Below, piece after piece: positions 90 through 29,892 of a stretch of DNA of 33,832 bases. This DNA is from Rhizobiales bacterium Ga0077524 (lineage in GTDB: Bacteria > Pseudomonadota > Alphaproteobacteria > Rhizobiales > Hyphomicrobiaceae): positions 1 through 33,832 of the forward strand of contig LNDR01000383.1 of assembly GCA_001464755.1 (NCBI GenBank), written 5' to 3'. Numbering within the stretch: position 1 is the first letter of the stretch; every line of letters starts with the position of its first letter. Under the pieces are notes generated by a model. That model did no database searches. It was not told where the DNA came from and worked only from the letters and a program-made list of their open reading frames with translations. Position numbers and translations under genes: made by a program.

Positions 90-548
90 ATGCCCGAGTT
101 GAAAAGCGAGTTCCTGTTCACGCTCACCGCGTCGGTGACGCAACTGCTCGACGTGGGCGAGGTGCCGGTCGGTCGGCGGCATGTGGATCTGCTCGGGGCG
201 GGCACGTTCGAGGGGCCACGCCTCAAGGGCGAGCTGGTGGCCGGCGGCATCGACATGAAGACCATCCGCCCGGATGGGGCCGTCATTCCCAACGTGCGGC
301 TCGTGCTCCGGACCGACGATGCGGCGCTGATTTTCATGCACTACACGGGCATCCGCTGCGGAGCGCCCGAGGTGATGGTGCGCATCGCCGCCGGCGAGAT
401 CGTCGACCCATCCGTGTACTACCACCGCAGCACGCCCTACTTCGAGACGGCGTCGGCGAAATACGCGTGGCTCAACCGCATCTGCTCGGTCGGCCTCGGC
501 TGGCGCAAGGCCGATCGCGCGGGCTACGACGTGTTCGAGATCCTGTAA
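90..548 (+). CDS. DUF3237 domain protein
   Basis: A 152-residue soluble protein that resembles the DUF3237 family, whose function is unknown. The reading frame is open from further upstream, but the ATG at 90 has a clear AAGGAG six bases before it, and the residues from there (starting MPELKSEF) match the expected family start. Family-like features are the early GxxxVGxRR turn, the GTFEGPRLKGEL segment, a conserved YHRSTPYFET stretch, and a C-terminal AWLNR motif. No signal peptide or membrane segment is seen. It stands alone, convergent with the epimerase gene on the other strand, so its neighbours say little about its role. The family assignment is likely; no biochemical function is proposed. 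Confidence 0.85.
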   Translation: MPELKSEFLFTLTASVTQLLDVGEVPVGRRHVDLLGAGTFEGPRLKGELVAGGIDMKTIRPDGAVIPNVRLVLRTDDAALIFMHYTGIRCGAPEVMVRIAAGEIVDPSVYYHRSTPYFETASAKYAWLNRICSVGLGWRKADRAGYDVFEIL

Positions 549-557
549 GACGCGAAA

Positions 558-582
558 CGGGCGGAGCCAGGAACCCCGCCCG
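558..582. terminator. possible hairpin between convergent genes
   Basis: A 7-bp perfect stem (CGGGCGG at 558-564 pairing with CCGCCCG at 576-582) with an 11-base loop lies in the 60-bp gap between the stop codons of two convergent genes. No T-run follows on either strand, so it is not a classical intrinsic terminator. It may act as a bidirectional stop or an mRNA 3' end stabiliser. Confidence 0.3.
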
Positions 583-608
583 ATGTCGTTGGCGGTCGAC
601 GTGGCCGA

Positions 609-1598
609 TCACGCCGCCTTGGCGGTGCCGCGTTGACGCGCGATCTGGACCTGTTGCGCGATCCAGGCATAGGTTTTGGCGAGGCCGTCGCGCAGCGGCT
701 GCGACGGGCGCCAGTCGAGCTTCTCGGAGATCAGCGTGTTGTCCGAGTTGCGCCCGCGCACGCCGAGCGGCCCCGGAATGTGGCGCTTCACGACCGTTTT
801 GCCGGCGATCGAGGCGGCCATGTCGGCGAGGCCGTTGATCGAGACCATCTCGTCGGAGCCGATGTTGACGGGGCCCTGCCAGCCCTGGCGCATCAGGCGC
901 GTCGTGCCCTCGAGGCACTCGTCGATATAGAGAAACGAGCGCGTCTGGTTGCCGTCTCCCCAGACCTCGACCTCGCCGCCGTTGTCGGCTGCTGCAACCT
1001 TGCGGCAGATGGCGGCCGGCGCCTTCTCCTTGCCGTCGTTCCAGGCGCCCTCGGGGCCGAAGATGTTGTGGTAGCGCGCGATGCGCACATCGAAGCCGTG
1101 GTTGCGCGCATAGGCCATGTAGAGCCGCTCGGAGAACAGCTTCTCCCAGCCGTACTCGCTGTCGGGGCCGGCCGGGTAGGCGTCGTTTTCGGCGAGGCCC
1201 GGGTTGTTCGGGTCCATTTGCCGGGACTCGGGATAGATGCAGGCCGAGGACGAGTAGAAGATGCGCCACGAGTTCCGCCGACGGCACGCCTCGAGCATGT
1301 TGAGGTTGATCTGGGCGGAGTTGTGCATCACGTCGGCGTCGTTCTCGCCGGTGAAGATGTAGCCAGCGCCGCCCATGTCGGCGGCGAGCTGATAGACCTC
1401 GTCGAAGCGAGTGTCGACGACCTCGCGGCAGACGCTCATCTCGCGTAGATCGCCGAGGATGAAGTCGTCGGCCTCGGTCTCGCTGAAACGGGGATACTTC
1501 AGGTCGGTGCCGCGGACCCAGAAGCCTTCCCGCTTCAGGCGCTTGACGAGGTGCGAGCCGATAAAGCCGCCGGCGCCGCAAACGAGTGCTTTCTTCAT
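609..1598 (-). CDS. GDP-mannose 3,5-epimerase-like SDR protein
   Basis: A 329-residue extended short-chain dehydrogenase/reductase that closely resembles plant GDP-D-mannose 3',5'-epimerase, which makes GDP-L-galactose and GDP-L-gulose. The NAD-binding glycine motif GAGGFIG is at residues 8-14. Residues equivalent to the plant catalytic set are all present with identical spacing: S118, C120, Y149 and K153 (YxxxK), K192 and R281, a constant offset of 25 from plant S143, C145, Y174, K178, K217 and R306 (plant numbers recalled from the literature). The motif around K192 (GKEKAPAAICRK) is also typical. It is the last gene of a minus-strand polysaccharide operon, 69 bases after a glycosyltransferase gene, so it probably supplies an unusual nucleotide sugar to that pathway. 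A different NDP-sugar epimerase activity cannot be excluded. Confidence 0.88.
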   Translation of the reverse strand: MKKALVCGAGGFIGSHLVKRLKREGFWVRGTDLKYPRFSETEADDFILGDLREMSVCREVVDTRFDEVYQLAADMGGAGYIFTGENDADVMHNSAQINLNMLEACRRRNSWRIFYSSSACIYPESRQMDPNNPGLAENDAYPAGPDSEYGWEKLFSERLYMAYARNHGFDVRIARYHNIFGPEGAWNDGKEKAPAAICRKVAAADNGGEVEVWGDGNQTRSFLYIDECLEGTTRLMRQGWQGPVNIGSDEMVSINGLADMAASIAGKTVVKRHIPGPLGVRGRNSDNTLISEKLDWRPSQPLRDGLAKTYAWIAQQVQIARQRGTAKAA

Positions 1599-25250: not shown

Positions 25251-25817
25251 TCAGGCCTTGGCGCGCTCGACGTACTCGCCGTCCGTGGAGACGACAATGC
25301 GCGTGCCGCTCTCGATGTGCGGCGGCACCATCACGCGGACGCCGTTCTCGAGCTTGGCGGGCTTATAGGACGACGACGCCGTCTGCCCTTTCACCACGGG
25401 ATCGGCCTCGACGATGGTCAGCGTCACGCGGGGTGGCAGCTCGATGGCGACTGGTACACCCTCGAACAGCTGCACGTCGCAGCTCATATTTTCCTGCAGC
25501 CACGCCGCGCTGTCGCCGATCAGGTCCTTCGAGATCGAGATCTGTTCGAACGTATTGGGCTCCATGAAGTTGAATCCCATATCGTCCTCATAGAGGTAAT
25601 TGAACGTCTTCTGGTCGAGGAAGGCGCGCTCGACCGATTCCGTCGTACGATAACTCTTCACAATTTTCACGCCGTCAGAAATGCGGCGCATGTCGATATG
25701 CGTCGTCGGCGTGCCCTTGCCCGGACGGATGCTCTCGGCCTTCAGAACCGTGCACAAGGTGCCCTCGATGTCGAGCACGTTCCCCTTGCGCACCTCACTC
25801 GCGATGACCTTGACCAC
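25251..25817 (-). CDS. efp: elongation factor P
   Basis: A 188-residue translation factor that relieves ribosome stalling at polyproline stretches. The three beta-barrel domains are recognisable: a KOW-like N-domain (VKVIASEVRKGNVLDIEG), the central domain (DVQLFEGVPVAIELPPRVTLTIVEADP) and the C-terminal signature KPAKLENGVRVMVPPHIESGTRIVV. The modified lysine is K34 in the RPGKGTP loop, the residue beta-lysylated by EpmA/EpmB, whose genes lie about 2 kb away in this window. Translation starts at a GTG at 25817 with GGAG upstream. The TIR gene ends 165 bp upstream on the same strand, so the efp promoter should lie in that gap. Confidence 0.97.
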   Translation of the reverse strand: MVKVIASEVRKGNVLDIEGTLCTVLKAESIRPGKGTPTTHIDMRRISDGVKIVKSYRTTESVERAFLDQKTFNYLYEDDMGFNFMEPNTFEQISISKDLIGDSAAWLQENMSCDVQLFEGVPVAIELPPRVTLTIVEADPVVKGQTASSSYKPAKLENGVRVMVPPHIESGTRIVVSTDGEYVERAKA

Positions 25818-25982
25818 AGGCAGTACTCCGTTCTCTTGCAGGCCGCCGGCGCGATGCCAACAGCGGCCCCTCCGGTCTCGCGTGAGACGGGGGCGGATAA
25901 GCTCTCGGCGCGTTCTTAGCTGCTTTGCGACGCGCGGGGAAGGGGCGTGGCCGCGTCCGCAATTCAGCCGAGGCCTCGACCG

Positions 25983-26531
25983 TCAGATTGAAGTCGTCTC
26001 GAGACCGCAACCAGCGAGCGCGGCCAAAATCGCGGGCGTATCGTCCGCCGAGACGCAGTGTAATTGCCGGAAACCAAAGGGAATTGCACAAGCTTCAAGA
26101 TCGCCCAAGCGGCAGGTTACGAGTTTGCCAGCGCTTTTTCCCGCCTCAGCTTCGTCGATTACGAAGTCGGAGCAGGTCGAATATTGCGACCAGAGCACCA
26201 TGACAACGGTCGCCTTCGAGATCATCTCGCCCAGGCGCAGCCGGAAATGTTGTCCGCCCAGAAGATCCTGATCCCATTCGACGCGAATGCCATGAGCGCG
26301 GAGCGCCGCGACGACTTGGGCGGCTGGAGATGCATCCTCACGCGCGTATGCAACGAAGACGAAGGGTCCCCGATCAGGCGTCTCCGTCGTGGCAAGTCGC
26401 ATCGAGCGAGTCGGGGCGGCGGATGAAGAGGTGGGAAGCGTCAACCGCTTCGGCTTTGCCGCCTCAAGCATGCTGTCGCGGCTGAGCTTGGCCGCGGCTT
26501 CGAGCGCTTCTGGTGATTTTCTGATGGCCAT
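25983..26531 (-). CDS. TIR-domain protein
   Basis: A 182-residue protein. Residues 1-55 form a charged helix-prone N-terminus and a Ser/Thr/Pro-rich linker. A TIR domain follows at about 57-165: strand A and loop FVFVAYAREDASPAAQ, LRAHGIRVEWDQDLLGGQHF, then MISKATVVMVLWSQYS. The SDFVIDEAEAG helix carries the probable NADase glutamate (E127). No signal peptide or membrane helix is present. Bacterial TIR proteins often cleave NAD as effectors of antiphage systems, but activity here is inferred. The ATG at 26531 was chosen over an upstream TTG at 26576. It lies 61 bp after the ribbon-helix-helix gene on the same strand and appears to be the last gene of a parA-led operon. Confidence 0.83.
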   Translation of the reverse strand: MAIRKSPEALEAAAKLSRDSMLEAAKPKRLTLPTSSSAAPTRSMRLATTETPDRGPFVFVAYAREDASPAAQVVAALRAHGIRVEWDQDLLGGQHFRLRLGEMISKATVVMVLWSQYSTCSDFVIDEAEAGKSAGKLVTCRLGDLEACAIPFGFRQLHCVSADDTPAILAALAGCGLETTSI

Positions 26532-26592
26532 GGGCGGGCGATCCCCCGTCTTTGAACACAACAACGAGTGAGCCAACCGAATGAACGGCAGC

Positions 26593-26895
26593 TCAAGCTA
26601 TCGGCTTGAGGCGATTGGACTCGAAAAGCAGATTGATGGCTTCGAGCCCAATCGTCTGAACGCTCTTGCGTTGGTCGTGGGCCAATCGAGCCAACTGCTC
26701 CTTGGCTTCGGGTGTCAGGTAGATCACCACGCCTTTGCGGTCTTTGCGGCTCTTGGTCGACGGGGGCTGCGCTGCCACAGGGGTGGCGATGGCGCGGACA
26801 CTCGAAGCCTTCTGCATCGCCATGCGGCTCCGCTCGGCGTGGTCGGCGAGACGGACCTCGATGCTGTCTTTTGCCTTACGTTTGGGTTTGCTCAT
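26593..26895 (-). CDS. ribbon-helix-helix protein, ParA partner
   Basis: A 100-residue basic protein. Residues 1-53 are Lys/Arg/Ala-rich and probably flexible. Residues 54-92 look like a ribbon-helix-helix domain: a beta strand (KGVVIYL, 54-60), helix one (TPEAKEQLARLAHDQ) and helix two (SVQTIGLEAINLLFE). Its ATG overlaps the parA stop codon by four bases, the usual arrangement of ParA with a small RHH centromere-binding protein (ParG- or omega-like). Such proteins bind short tandem repeats upstream of parA, and three GCTAGC repeats are found exactly there. It probably binds that site, represses the operon and stimulates the ATPase. Confidence 0.8.
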   Translation of the reverse strand: MSKPKRKAKDSIEVRLADHAERSRMAMQKASSVRAIATPVAAQPPSTKSRKDRKGVVIYLTPEAKEQLARLAHDQRKSVQTIGLEAINLLFESNRLKPIA

Positions 26896-27560
26896 GCATT
26901 CTCCCGCTTGCGCGTCCTTTCGATGCGGCGGCTGTGCCTAACCAGATCATCCAGAAGCGTGATGACGTTTTCGGCGGCCTTGGAGTTGCGGCTCTGCTCG
27001 ACGATGCCTTTGCCCTTGCCGAGCGAACTCGCCAGCGCGGCGCTGTCTGCAAGTCCCGGCGAAAGCAGCGGGGTGCCGTAGTCGCGCGCCAACCGTTCGA
27101 TGCCGGTGAGCATCGCCTTGTCACCGTTCGGAGCATTCAGGACGAGAATTGTCCGGTCGAGCTTGTCGGCATCCATCAACGCCTGCAACGTGTCGCGTAA
27201 GGCATCCACGTCGAGGGTCGAGGTTCGTGTCGGGACGATGATCATGTCGGCGACGCCGCCGGCCCGCAGAGTCGTATTGTTCGTGGCTGGCGGTGTGTCG
27301 ATCAGCACGAGATCGTTGTCGGCGCTGCGGGCAGCCTCGATCATCCGATCGATGTCGTGGAGCAGGGCCGGCACGATGGCTGGCGCCGCCTTCTTTACCT
27401 TGAGACGTCGGAGCGCACCCCATTTCTCGGCCGAGCGTTGCGTATCGAGATCGATGATCGACACGGCCTTGCCGCGATCGATTGCAGCCATTGCCAGGTG
27501 CAGGACCAGCGTCGTCTTCCCGCTGCCGCCCTTCTGACTGAGCACCGTCCAAACACGCAT
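26892..27560 (-). CDS. ParA-family ATPase (type Ib-like)
   Basis: A 222-residue deviant Walker ATPase. The P-loop is KGGSGKTT (10-17) with the signature lysine K10. Switch I is IIDLDTQRSAEKWG, with D39, and the Walker B-like strand is LVLIDTPPA, with D88. There is no N-terminal helix-turn-helix, as in short plasmid-type (Ib) ParA proteins. The ATG at 27560 starts at MRVWTVLSQKGG with GGAAG upstream; the open frame to 27629 would run through the repeat array and was rejected. It heads an operon with the RHH and TIR genes. Possible roles are partition of a lost or integrated plasmid, or positioning of another cargo. Nothing else plasmid-like (rep, integrase) is in the window. Confidence 0.9.
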   Translation of the reverse strand: MRVWTVLSQKGGSGKTTLVLHLAMAAIDRGKAVSIIDLDTQRSAEKWGALRRLKVKKAAPAIVPALLHDIDRMIEAARSADNDLVLIDTPPATNNTTLRAGGVADMIIVPTRTSTLDVDALRDTLQALMDADKLDRTILVLNAPNGDKAMLTGIERLARDYGTPLLSPGLADSAALASSLGKGKGIVEQSRNSKAAENVITLLDDLVRHSRRIERTRKRENA

Positions 27561-27600
27561 GACATCTTCCGACTGGGACAACGAGGATTGGTTCAGATTC

Positions 27601-27630
27601 GCTAGCAGTGCTAGCAAAAGTGCTAGCACT
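27601..27630. repeat. GCTAGC repeat array upstream of parA
   Basis: Three copies of the palindrome GCTAGC, at 27601-27606, 27610-27615 and 27622-27627. They grow in symmetry from a 6-bp core to the 12-bp perfect palindrome AGTGCTAGCACT at 27619-27630. The array lies 41 bp before the parA start codon. CTAG is generally rare in bacterial DNA, so three in 27 bp is striking. It is a likely operator or centromere-like (parS) site for the RHH protein. Confidence 0.75.
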
Positions 27631-27784
27631 GCTTACACTGCGATTAAGGGGAGTTTTACGGACTATCCGAGCGGCTGACAAGGGTTCTGATTCGCATTAA
27701 CCGACCTGCCTACCGCTGGCACTGGCAGAAACACGCACGATCGACTAACAACAGGTAAACAGGTTCGACGGCGATCCATCTGAA

Positions 27785-28858
27785 ATGATCAAGAACATCA
27801 ACCCCTTCTGGAACCCCGCCCGCCATGCCGACAGGCGGCCGGTGCTGTTGGCGCGCGGCCGTATCAAGGCGGCGATCCGGCGGTGGTTCGAGGACCAGGG
27901 CTTCGTCGAGGTGGAGACAGCTTGTCTACAGGTGTCGCCCGGCAACGAGGCGCATCTCCACGCGTTTGCGACGGAATGGCGAAGTGAGGCGGGGGCACGC
28001 CATCCCCTCTATCTGCACACCAGCCCCGAGTTCGCCTGCAAGAAGCTGCTGGCGGCCGGCGAAACCCGGATCTTCACCTTCGCGCCCGTGTTCCGGAACG
28101 GCGAGCGCAGCGCCTTGCATGCGCCCGAGTTCACGATGCTCGAGTGGTATCGCGCCGGCGCGCCCTACACGACGCTGATGGAGGACTGCGCCGCGTTGCT
28201 CCGTATCGCCGCCGACGTCACGGGGCGCGACCCATGGACGTTCCGCGGTCGCTCGGCGCGGCCCACGCTCGTTCCACATCGGGTCGGCGTGGACGAGCTG
28301 TTTCGCCGGCACGCAGGTATCCGCTTACTCGAGCACACGCTGCCCCGAGGTCTGCCCGATCGGGATGCGCTCGCCCGGGAGGCCAGCCGGATCGGCGTTC
28401 GGGTGGCTATCGATGACACCTGGTCGGATCTCTTCTCGCGCATCCTCGTCGAGCGGATCGAGCCTGCGCTCGGCGCCGAGCCGGATGCCGCGCCGGTCGT
28501 GGTCGATGCCTATCCGACGCACGAGGCGGCCCTGGCACGGCCGTCGCCGGCCGATCCCCGCGTCGCCGAGCGGTTCGAGCTTTATGCCTGCGGCGTCGAG
28601 CTTGCCAATGCCTTCGGCGAGTTGGTGGACCCGGTCGAGCAGCGCCGCCGCCTCGAGACGGAGATGGACGAGAAAGAGCGCATCTACGGCGAGCGCTACC
28701 CGATCGACGAGGATTTCCTGGCGGCGCTCGCGCTGATGCCGCCCGCCTCCGGTTGTGCCCTCGGCTTCGATCGACTGGTGATGCTGGCGACGGGGGCCAC
28801 GCATATCGATCAGGTGCTCTGGACGCCGGCGCCTGATTTGGGCACAAGGGGCCTGTGA
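27785..28858 (+). CDS. epmA: EF-P--(R)-beta-lysine ligase EpmA
   Basis: A 357-residue class II lysyl-tRNA-synthetase-like enzyme without the anticodon-binding domain. It attaches (R)-beta-lysine to Lys34 of EF-P. Motifs are FVEVETACLQVSPGNEAHLHAF near the N-terminus, LHTSPEFACKKLLA, motif 2 (FAPVFRNGERSALHAPEFTM, then LEWYRAG), ELANAFGEL and motif 3 (GCALGFDRLVML). The length is close to the usual 325-350 residues. The ATG at 27785 has no strong ribosome site. The stop overlaps the start of epmB by four bases. It is divergent from the parA operon, which separates it from efp. Confidence 0.94.
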   Translation: MIKNINPFWNPARHADRRPVLLARGRIKAAIRRWFEDQGFVEVETACLQVSPGNEAHLHAFATEWRSEAGARHPLYLHTSPEFACKKLLAAGETRIFTFAPVFRNGERSALHAPEFTMLEWYRAGAPYTTLMEDCAALLRIAADVTGRDPWTFRGRSARPTLVPHRVGVDELFRRHAGIRLLEHTLPRGLPDRDALAREASRIGVRVAIDDTWSDLFSRILVERIEPALGAEPDAAPVVVDAYPTHEAALARPSPADPRVAERFELYACGVELANAFGELVDPVEQRRRLETEMDEKERIYGERYPIDEDFLAALALMPPASGCALGFDRLVMLATGATHIDQVLWTPAPDLGTRGL

Positions 28859-29892
28859 AAAGCGCCCCGAAACACTTGAGAACACTCGGCGATCTCGCCG
28901 ACGCGGGCCTTGTCGCGCAGCCTGCCGTCGAAGCCCTGGAGGCTGTTGCGCGTCGCTACGCCATCGCGATTACGCCCGAGATGGCCGCGTTGATCGACCC
29001 CAGTGATCCCGACGACCCGATCACGCGCCAGTTCGTTCCGTCCGTGCAAGAGCTCGACGAGACACCCGGCGAGCACGCAGACCCGATCGGCGATCATGCG
29101 CACGAGAAGCTGCCGGGACTCGTGCATCGCTACCCGGACCGCGTGCTGCTCAAGGTCACCCATGCCTGCCCGGTCTACTGCCGCTTCTGTTTTCGCCGCG
29201 AGATGGTGGGGCCGGGCGGGCCGCCTCCCATGGTCGGCGAGGCGCTCGCACGGGTGATCGACTACATCCGGGCGCGACCCGAGATCTTCGAGGTGATCCT
29301 GACCGGCGGCGATCCCCTCGTTCTGGCGCCGCGCCGGATCGCCGAGATCACGGGTGCGCTGGCCGAGATCGCACATGTGAAGGTGTTGCGCTGGCACAGC
29401 CGGGTGCCGGTGGTTGATCCCGGGCGGGTCACCGAAGACATGACGAAAGCGCTGACAGCCACCGGGCAGACCGTCTACGTCGGCATTCACGCCAACTATC
29501 CCCGCGAGCTGACATCGGCCGCGCGGACGGCCATCACGCGCCTGCGGCAAGCCGGGATTGTGCTCCTCAGCCAGACCGTGCTGCTCAAGGGCATAAACGA
29601 CGACGCGGCGATACTGGAGACGCTGTTCCGGGAGTTCGTCGCGCTGGGCATCCGGCCCTACTACCTGCATCATGCCGATCTCGCCCCCGGCACGGCGCAT
29701 TTTCGGACAACGCTCACGGAAGGTCAGGCTCTGATGCGGGCCTTGCGCGGACGGGTGAGCGGATTGGCACAGCCGACCTATGTGCTCGATATTCCCGGCG
29801 GCCACGGCAAAGTGCCGGTCGGGCCCGCCTATGCCGACCCGGCAGCCGGCACGGTGGCCGATCCGTCAGGCCACATGCACGACTATTCCTGA
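28855..29892 (+). CDS. epmB: EF-P lysine 2,3-aminomutase EpmB
   Basis: A 345-residue radical SAM enzyme that converts L-lysine to (R)-beta-lysine for EpmA. The iron-sulfur motif CPVYCRFC has cysteines at 105, 109 and 112. The segment VILTGGDPLVLAP is the SAM-binding GGD-type motif. The PLP-binding lysine is K319 in DIPGGHGKVP. It starts at a GTG overlapping the epmA stop, so the two are translationally coupled. The shortened C-terminus compared with true clostridial lysine aminomutases fits the EpmB group. No epmC (EF-P hydroxylase) is visible. Confidence 0.93.
   Translation: MKSAPKHLRTLGDLADAGLVAQPAVEALEAVARRYAIAITPEMAALIDPSDPDDPITRQFVPSVQELDETPGEHADPIGDHAHEKLPGLVHRYPDRVLLKVTHACPVYCRFCFRREMVGPGGPPPMVGEALARVIDYIRARPEIFEVILTGGDPLVLAPRRIAEITGALAEIAHVKVLRWHSRVPVVDPGRVTEDMTKALTATGQTVYVGIHANYPRELTSAARTAITRLRQAGIVLLSQTVLLKGINDDAAILETLFREFVALGIRPYYLHHADLAPGTAHFRTTLTEGQALMRALRGRVSGLAQPTYVLDIPGGHGKVPVGPAYADPAAGTVADPSGHMHDYS

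Follow-up and report, generated by a model that had tools for sequence, protein, structure and literature searches.

Three GCTAGC palindromes clustered just ahead of a parA gene make up a genuine DNA site that evolution has conserved, and they are most likely a switch: we put at roughly 0.77 the probability that they form an operator through which a ribbon-helix-helix (RHH) protein autoregulates a chromosomal cassette of parA, the RHH gene and an effector gene. The operon joins plasmid-partition-type genes, which encode ParA and its DNA-binding partner, to an immunity-type TIR or caspase gene. The site would be ordinary as the operator mechanism of a ParA-RHH operon and unusual in the genes controlled. 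The features that matter here, within the stretch of 33,832 nucleotides that was analyzed (the window), are as follows.

25251..25817, minus strand: efp, left neighbor of the cassette
25983..26531, minus strand: TIR-domain effector gene (TIR_2, 4.1e-13), with an EA-motif glutamate; alternative start TTG at 26576
26593..26895, minus strand: RHH protein of 100 aa, with a C-terminal ribbon-helix-helix (PF20605) and a low-confidence N-terminal tail; its first 4 bp overlap the end of parA
26892..27560, minus strand: parA, a 222-aa ParA ATPase with a KGGSGKTT Walker A motif; best PDB matches 5u1g (ParA) and 4dzz (ParF)
27601..27636, no strand: candidate composite operator, GCTAGC-3-GCTAGC-6-GCTAGC-3-GCTTAC, a dyad overall
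27608..27617, no strand: second core, GTGCTAGCAA, the window's second-best match to the motif derived from relatives
27620..27629, no strand: core, GTGCTAGCAC, the window's top match to that motif and the sole exact copy in the genome
27785..28858, plus strand: epmA, divergent right neighbor of the cassette

The repeat site and its rarity

The preliminary description had placed three clustered GCTAGC copies just upstream of parA, one of them inside a perfect 12-bp palindrome, and all of this was borne out: the copies start at 27601, 27610 and 27622, 9 and 12 bp apart, the palindrome AGTGCTAGCACT occupies 27619-27630, and 40 bp separate the repeats from the parA ATG (27560, minus strand). A larger dyad had been overlooked, as had the third, TIR-domain gene of the operon. 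The dyad runs from 27601 to 27636 with perfect 13-nt arms around a 4-nt spacer, GCTTAC at 27631 being its degenerate fourth unit, and its 28 self-matching positions out of 36 are the most found in any 36-bp stretch of the window (the runner-up has 26).

The further claim, that the clustering makes chance an unlikely origin, stands; the count itself is not unusual. The window holds five GCTAGC against 5.9 expected from dinucleotide shuffles, so the signal lies in the clustering and not in the number. The genome-wide scan for clustered copies that had been proposed returned no pair elsewhere: of the 362 GCTAGC in the 5.12-Mb genome, no two are separated by at most 20 bp except at the present site. 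A formula puts the probability of three random copies this close anywhere in the genome at about 4e-4, and none of 4000 simulations produced such a cluster. A plain count of 6-mer repeats over the 150 bp ahead of parA misses significance (p = 0.11), which leaves rarity in the genome and conservation to carry the case. Within the window, Rfam gave no match at gathering scores, and a scan of 25800-28000 turned up no sigma-70-type promoter with which the repeats might overlap, a point against an operator.

The cassette and its chromosomal setting

The ParA of the cassette is small and lacks an N-terminal DNA-binding domain, as type Ib ParAs do, and a profile built from nine ParAs matches 5u1g and 4dzz among PDB sequences across nearly the full length. 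Its partner likewise has the type Ib form, a protein with a putatively disordered tail encoded next to parA, in which the predicted structure confines the RHH fold to residues 52-97. The RHH profile matched no PDB sequence up to an E-value of 1, and PF20605 (Antitox_RHH) matches the window's RHH protein and two of its relatives. Of three plasmid stretches examined around relatives of the RHH protein, two have an adjoining ParA-type gene and no TIR annotated nearby, and the third lists no parA.

The third gene product has a predicted structure that matches the TIR domains of SPARTA TIR-APAZ, AbTir and SARM1, and its EA-motif glutamate is invariant in all seven aligned TIRs, a residue that we take to be catalytic. 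By modeled fold and conserved glutamate it is a candidate TIR NADase effector, with putative NADase activity; its cassette partners, ParA and an RHH protein, set it apart from these three. Across the ten related operons that we compare below, ParA always precedes the RHH protein, and the gene that follows encodes a TIR protein in eight and a caspase in one, the contig ending there in the tenth. In the caspase operon (L049 of genome G063, 214-1452, minus strand), a Peptidase_C14 protein (6.8e-42) replaces the TIR protein; by eye it has GHG and DAC motifs and a hydrophobic segment, and its N-terminus holds two copies of an SLTxAV-type peptide. The TIR gene of L042 (G117) lies in two frames, as a disrupted gene or through an assembly error. 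On the cassette, PADLOC gave only weak or single-domain matches. The TIR protein drew SAVED_TIR (1.9e-7) and a generic TIR effector (2e-4), ParA drew mad8 (1.1e-4) along with two weaker ATPase matches, and the RHH protein drew none. Neither an Argonaute nor another known defense partner was recognized in the cassette. Plasmid relatives of the TIR protein came from two records, one listing no partition gene in the vicinity and the other unannotated.

The three genes share the minus strand and are flanked by efp on one side and by epmA, which is divergent, on the other; the cassette occupies this position in three of four genomes of the genus (G000, G001 and G003). A search with EpmA of nine genomes of the family found efp beside epmA in every one, with no ParA, RHH or TIR match in the locus; these cassette-free loci include that of G002, of the same genus, and four of the nine genomes (G014, G028, G063 and G117) carry the cassette on other contigs. 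The cassette is an accessory insertion in the chromosome, and its place between efp and epmA, from which it is absent in nine genomes, is not that of a gene set belonging to the replicon that it partitions. Two observations concern the flanks. Between efp and the TIR gene, a 47-bp block (25903-25949) is 96% identical in G003, and a 25-bp part of it is 92% identical in G001; it has no Rfam match, a 23-bp segment taken from it has a single occurrence in the window, and it may be a leader or terminator element of efp. The gene after epmA (28855-29892, plus strand) scores above the cut-off for TIGR03822 (lysine-2,3-aminomutase-like) and below it for EpmB, TIGR03821.

Conservation of the site upstream of parA

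A first scan for related loci found none, and in the best 80 loci of a second scan ParA identity was at most 39%, with no match (0/80) to five-member RHH or TIR profiles. Within the family, a ParA-profile search at an E-value of 1e-30 found matches in 39 of 103 genomes; ten ParAs scored at least 269 bits and the next 199, but nine of these ten had gone into the profile, so that the gap is in part by construction. In a tree of 50 ParAs the ten motif-bearing sequences form one clade (support 91/89). All ten operons come from one bacterial family and from multi-contig assemblies. RHH profile searches matched 24 of 103 genomes in the family and 23 of 397 in the order, and an extended profile matched 25 of 103 in the family and 7 of 385 in the class, our own genome counted; the six other loci of the class-wide search had no TIR-profile match and no caspase in their listed ORFs.

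A palindromic motif was sought de novo in the 200 bp upstream of parA in eight relatives, the window being excluded, with 60 restarts for the real set and 8 for each of 20 Markov-resampled controls. The motif returned was GTGCTAGCAC, with a total score of 134.8 against 82.5 +/- 3.5 in the controls (maximum 88.4). Applied to the whole 33.8-kb window, it placed its two highest scores at the repeats, 17.7 at 27620 and 15.1 at 27608, the third being lower at 12.3. A score of at least 15 occurs within 300 bp upstream of parA in 10/10 clade operons, eight of which are training rows and two of which (the window and G117) lie outside training, and a score of at least 12 in 2/40 other parA loci, the exceptions being L020 and L241. 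By the preliminary description's own criterion, absence of the repeats upstream of orthologous operons would refute its proposal. The outcome did not refute it and supports the operator half: a core of the GTGCTAGCAC type lies no more than 150 bp upstream of parA in the window and in all nine other clade operons, eight of these nine being the training set.

The location of the site is near-unique. Exact GTGCTAGCAC occurs in 11 copies in the ten carrier genomes (46 Mb), seven of them directly upstream of a clade parA. There is one copy each in G000, G001, G003, G028, G115 and G117, three in G062, two in G063 and none in G014 or G114, and in G000, G001, G003, G115 and G117 the lone copy is the one upstream of parA. 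At the site itself G014 has the variant GTGCTAGCAA, G028 ATGCTAGCAT and G114 GTGCTAGCAT. In the gap between parA and epmA, the longest block common to G001 and G003 is 15 bp and lies at the site, the exact blocks shared with the window (12 bp for G001, 10 bp for G003) also lie there, and matches outside the GCTAGC sites among these three do not exceed 9 bp. The position of the site relative to parA ranges from -26 to -146 across the ten operons, each of which has one to three GCTAGC in the 300 bp upstream, most with fewer copies or other spacings than the window.

The parA frame stays open as far as a GTG at 27629, so that the repeats could in principle be Leu-Ala codons of an N-terminally extended ParA, but GGAAG lies immediately upstream of the ATG at 27560, and because the phase of the site to parA differs among the ten operons, with an in-frame stop between site and start in 6/10, the motif is non-coding. 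Together with the conservation across the clade, this makes an origin as a coding repeat or by chance exceedingly improbable.

Elsewhere, repeats ahead of parA take other forms. Upstream of the parA of L036 (G028) there are tandem 8-bp units, ATGCTAGC ATGCTAAA ... ATGCAAGC CTGTAAGC, with a spacing that we take to resemble that of met boxes. L020, L022, L023 and L238 belong to another ParA clade of the same family with its own CTAG-based repeats upstream of parA (six GCTAGC in 330 bp in L238), which suggests that several RHH lineages favor CTAG palindromes. A rule that every ParA-RHH locus has upstream repeats was also considered and is unsupported by 6-mer counts, which reached p < 0.05 in only 7/44 loci, some of them duplicates.

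Proposed operator function, alternative readings and the effector

In the mechanism that we propose, dimers of the RHH protein would bind the GTGCTAGCAC palindromes ahead of parA, with two good copies of the GTGCTAGCAC type, flanked by the third GCTAGC and the degenerate fourth unit, as their targets within the dyad. Bound RHH protein would repress parA, its own gene and the effector gene, as type Ib centromere-binding RHH proteins do. On this view a plasmid partition module would have acquired an effector gene (for a TIR protein, in one case a caspase) while its cis site persisted as a switch. We infer the RHH protein as binder and repression as outcome because type Ib RHH partners have both functions, binding at the centromere and shutting the operon down from sites that lie ahead of it (PMC5016525, PMC7308502, PMC9499535). 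The spacing between units, which by eye is 8, 9, 12, 13 or 14 bp, is loose for a cooperative RHH array and counts against an operator.

Among the closest comparators is TP228 parFGH, whose ParF is one of the two PDB ParA sequences nearest to the clade and which, as far as the accessible text describes it, also has a small ParA ATPase, an RHH partner with an unstructured N-terminal tail and repeats upstream of the operon for repression. It differs in being plasmid-borne, with a degenerate tetramer array (parH) in addition to its operator and no effector gene mentioned in that text, whereas the present cassette is chromosomal, has GTGCTAGCAC palindromes and carries a TIR or caspase gene in third place. 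In the delta-omega-parS system of pSM19035, according to the sections available, an RHH partner likewise binds short repeats overlapping partition-gene promoters, but there 7-10 consecutive non-palindromic 7-bp repeats occur at six sites, and here there is one site of separated palindromes.

A rival reading takes the site for a centromere (parS), on which the RHH protein would load and ParA move the attached DNA, so that the cassette would segregate or position this chromosomal locus or a mobile element. The PDB neighbors of ParA, the predicted RHH fold preceded by a low-confidence N-tail in ParG-like fashion, the double use of type Ib upstream repeats as centromere and operator and the several ParA-RHH pairs outside the clade that adjoin replication-initiator-like genes (by eye; others adjoin unrelated genes) would all fit. 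Yet the cassette sits at efp-epmA in three genomes of the genus and is missing there in the fourth, and the genome has one exact core and no second GCTAGC pair. In pSM19035, full ParA activation requires four or more contiguous repeats (PMC9499535), against one to three GCTAGC per 300 bp here, an analogy only, as pSM19035 is another system; the present array has three good units and one degenerate unit, with gaps. The centromere half of the preliminary description, set against a single locus, a chromosomal cassette absent from a sister species and one to three GCTAGC in place of a contiguous array, is accordingly disfavored, and we regard such a role as improbable. Somewhat less doubtful, though still unlikely, is a toxin-antitoxin-like module in which the RHH protein directly neutralizes the TIR protein, with the repeats serving as an operator of the ordinary antitoxin kind. 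The Antitox_RHH matches, the resemblance of the TIR model to NADase TIRs and the order of an antitoxin-like gene followed by an effector gene point that way, and such a module would be compatible with an operator; against it stand the ParA ahead of the RHH protein in every operon, the plasmid relatives of the RHH protein that adjoin a ParA-type gene without an annotated TIR, and a C-terminal RHH with a free N-tail, which is the ParG layout and unlike the usual antitoxin layout.

Other systems make use of palindromes containing CTAG; this, the accessory nature of the cassette and the 4 of 11 exact GTGCTAGCAC copies that lie away from a clade parA would suit a site for an unrelated regulator or for insertion or recombination of the cassette. 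However, the site travels with parA to different chromosomal places (G014, G028, G063 and G117), and in three genus members no GCTAGC occurs in the DNA that separates efp from the TIR gene, making this very unlikely.

Beyond the operator, we considered a bolder and weaker proposal, tentative at best, for the effector itself: that its N-terminus shares the ParA-docking peptide of the RHH tail, so that ParA might retain the effector as nucleoid-bound cargo, or ParA might be contested between the effector and GTGCTAGCAC-bound RHH protein. Loss of RHH occupancy at the operator or of ParA cycling, for example upon phage attack, would then derepress and release the effector, and a partition machine would have been turned into an immune or cell-death device. 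In ParA/MinD systems it is a disordered N-terminus by which the partner protein docks on the ATPase (PMC10241942), and residues 8-22 of the ParG tail fold into a short helix against ParF (PMC7308502). In several of the present operons the effector N-terminus is similar to the RHH tail; the positioning systems differ in that the accessible text of PMC10241942 describes neither TIR nor caspase cargo, the term TIR having 0 occurrences in the paper. The clearest RHH tail/effector pairs are those of G063 (SMTDAIKASAG / SLTEAVRQTAG), G001 (SLKAKLQAVSG / RLKQKLQLVAS) and G115 (NLVHASVAMGQ / SLAKASRSMNT).

Similarity between cognate RHH tails and effectors in nine pairs gave p-values from 0.008 to 0.47 (a barely significant 0.044 for the window). 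An unbiased search for the best 11-mer in eight pairs, the near-copy L042 being dropped, gave a cognate permutation p of 0.013 and a Fisher value of 0.0022 at 150 shuffles per pair, with a non-significant p = 0.89 for the window pair; these unbiased statistics are modest. Hand-picked RHH 11-mers gave 7e-5 by permutation and 8e-7 by Fisher (window 0.49), values that are biased in that the peptides were chosen after viewing both sequences; six control scans of the TIR domain gave p from 0.07 to 0.82. A docking motif for the whole family was set aside. Its matrix, from 26 thinned N-termini of 37 in RHH proteins of loci outside the effector clade, did not convincingly recognize effector N-termini (Fisher p = 0.055) and also missed effector-type RHH tails (p = 0.068), and an earlier sampler run had locked on Pro/Ala-rich composition (p = 0.21).

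Among the literature matches listed, for a search with most preprints and subscription papers outside its scope, there is no published description of an operon of ParA, RHH and TIR or caspase genes. As far as their accessible text goes, PMC10853773 describes another system, as does PMC7159879, in which MinD/ParA-like domains, predicted to be inactive, are parts of effectors. What the present site offers is a concrete, testable candidate operator for a chromosomal ParA-RHH operon, one of a clade in a single bacterial family whose operons are accompanied by TIR or caspase effectors. Should the effector prove to be a client of ParA, ParA positioning machinery would be linked to bacterial immunity, and this would provide one answer to the role of orphan chromosomal ParAs.
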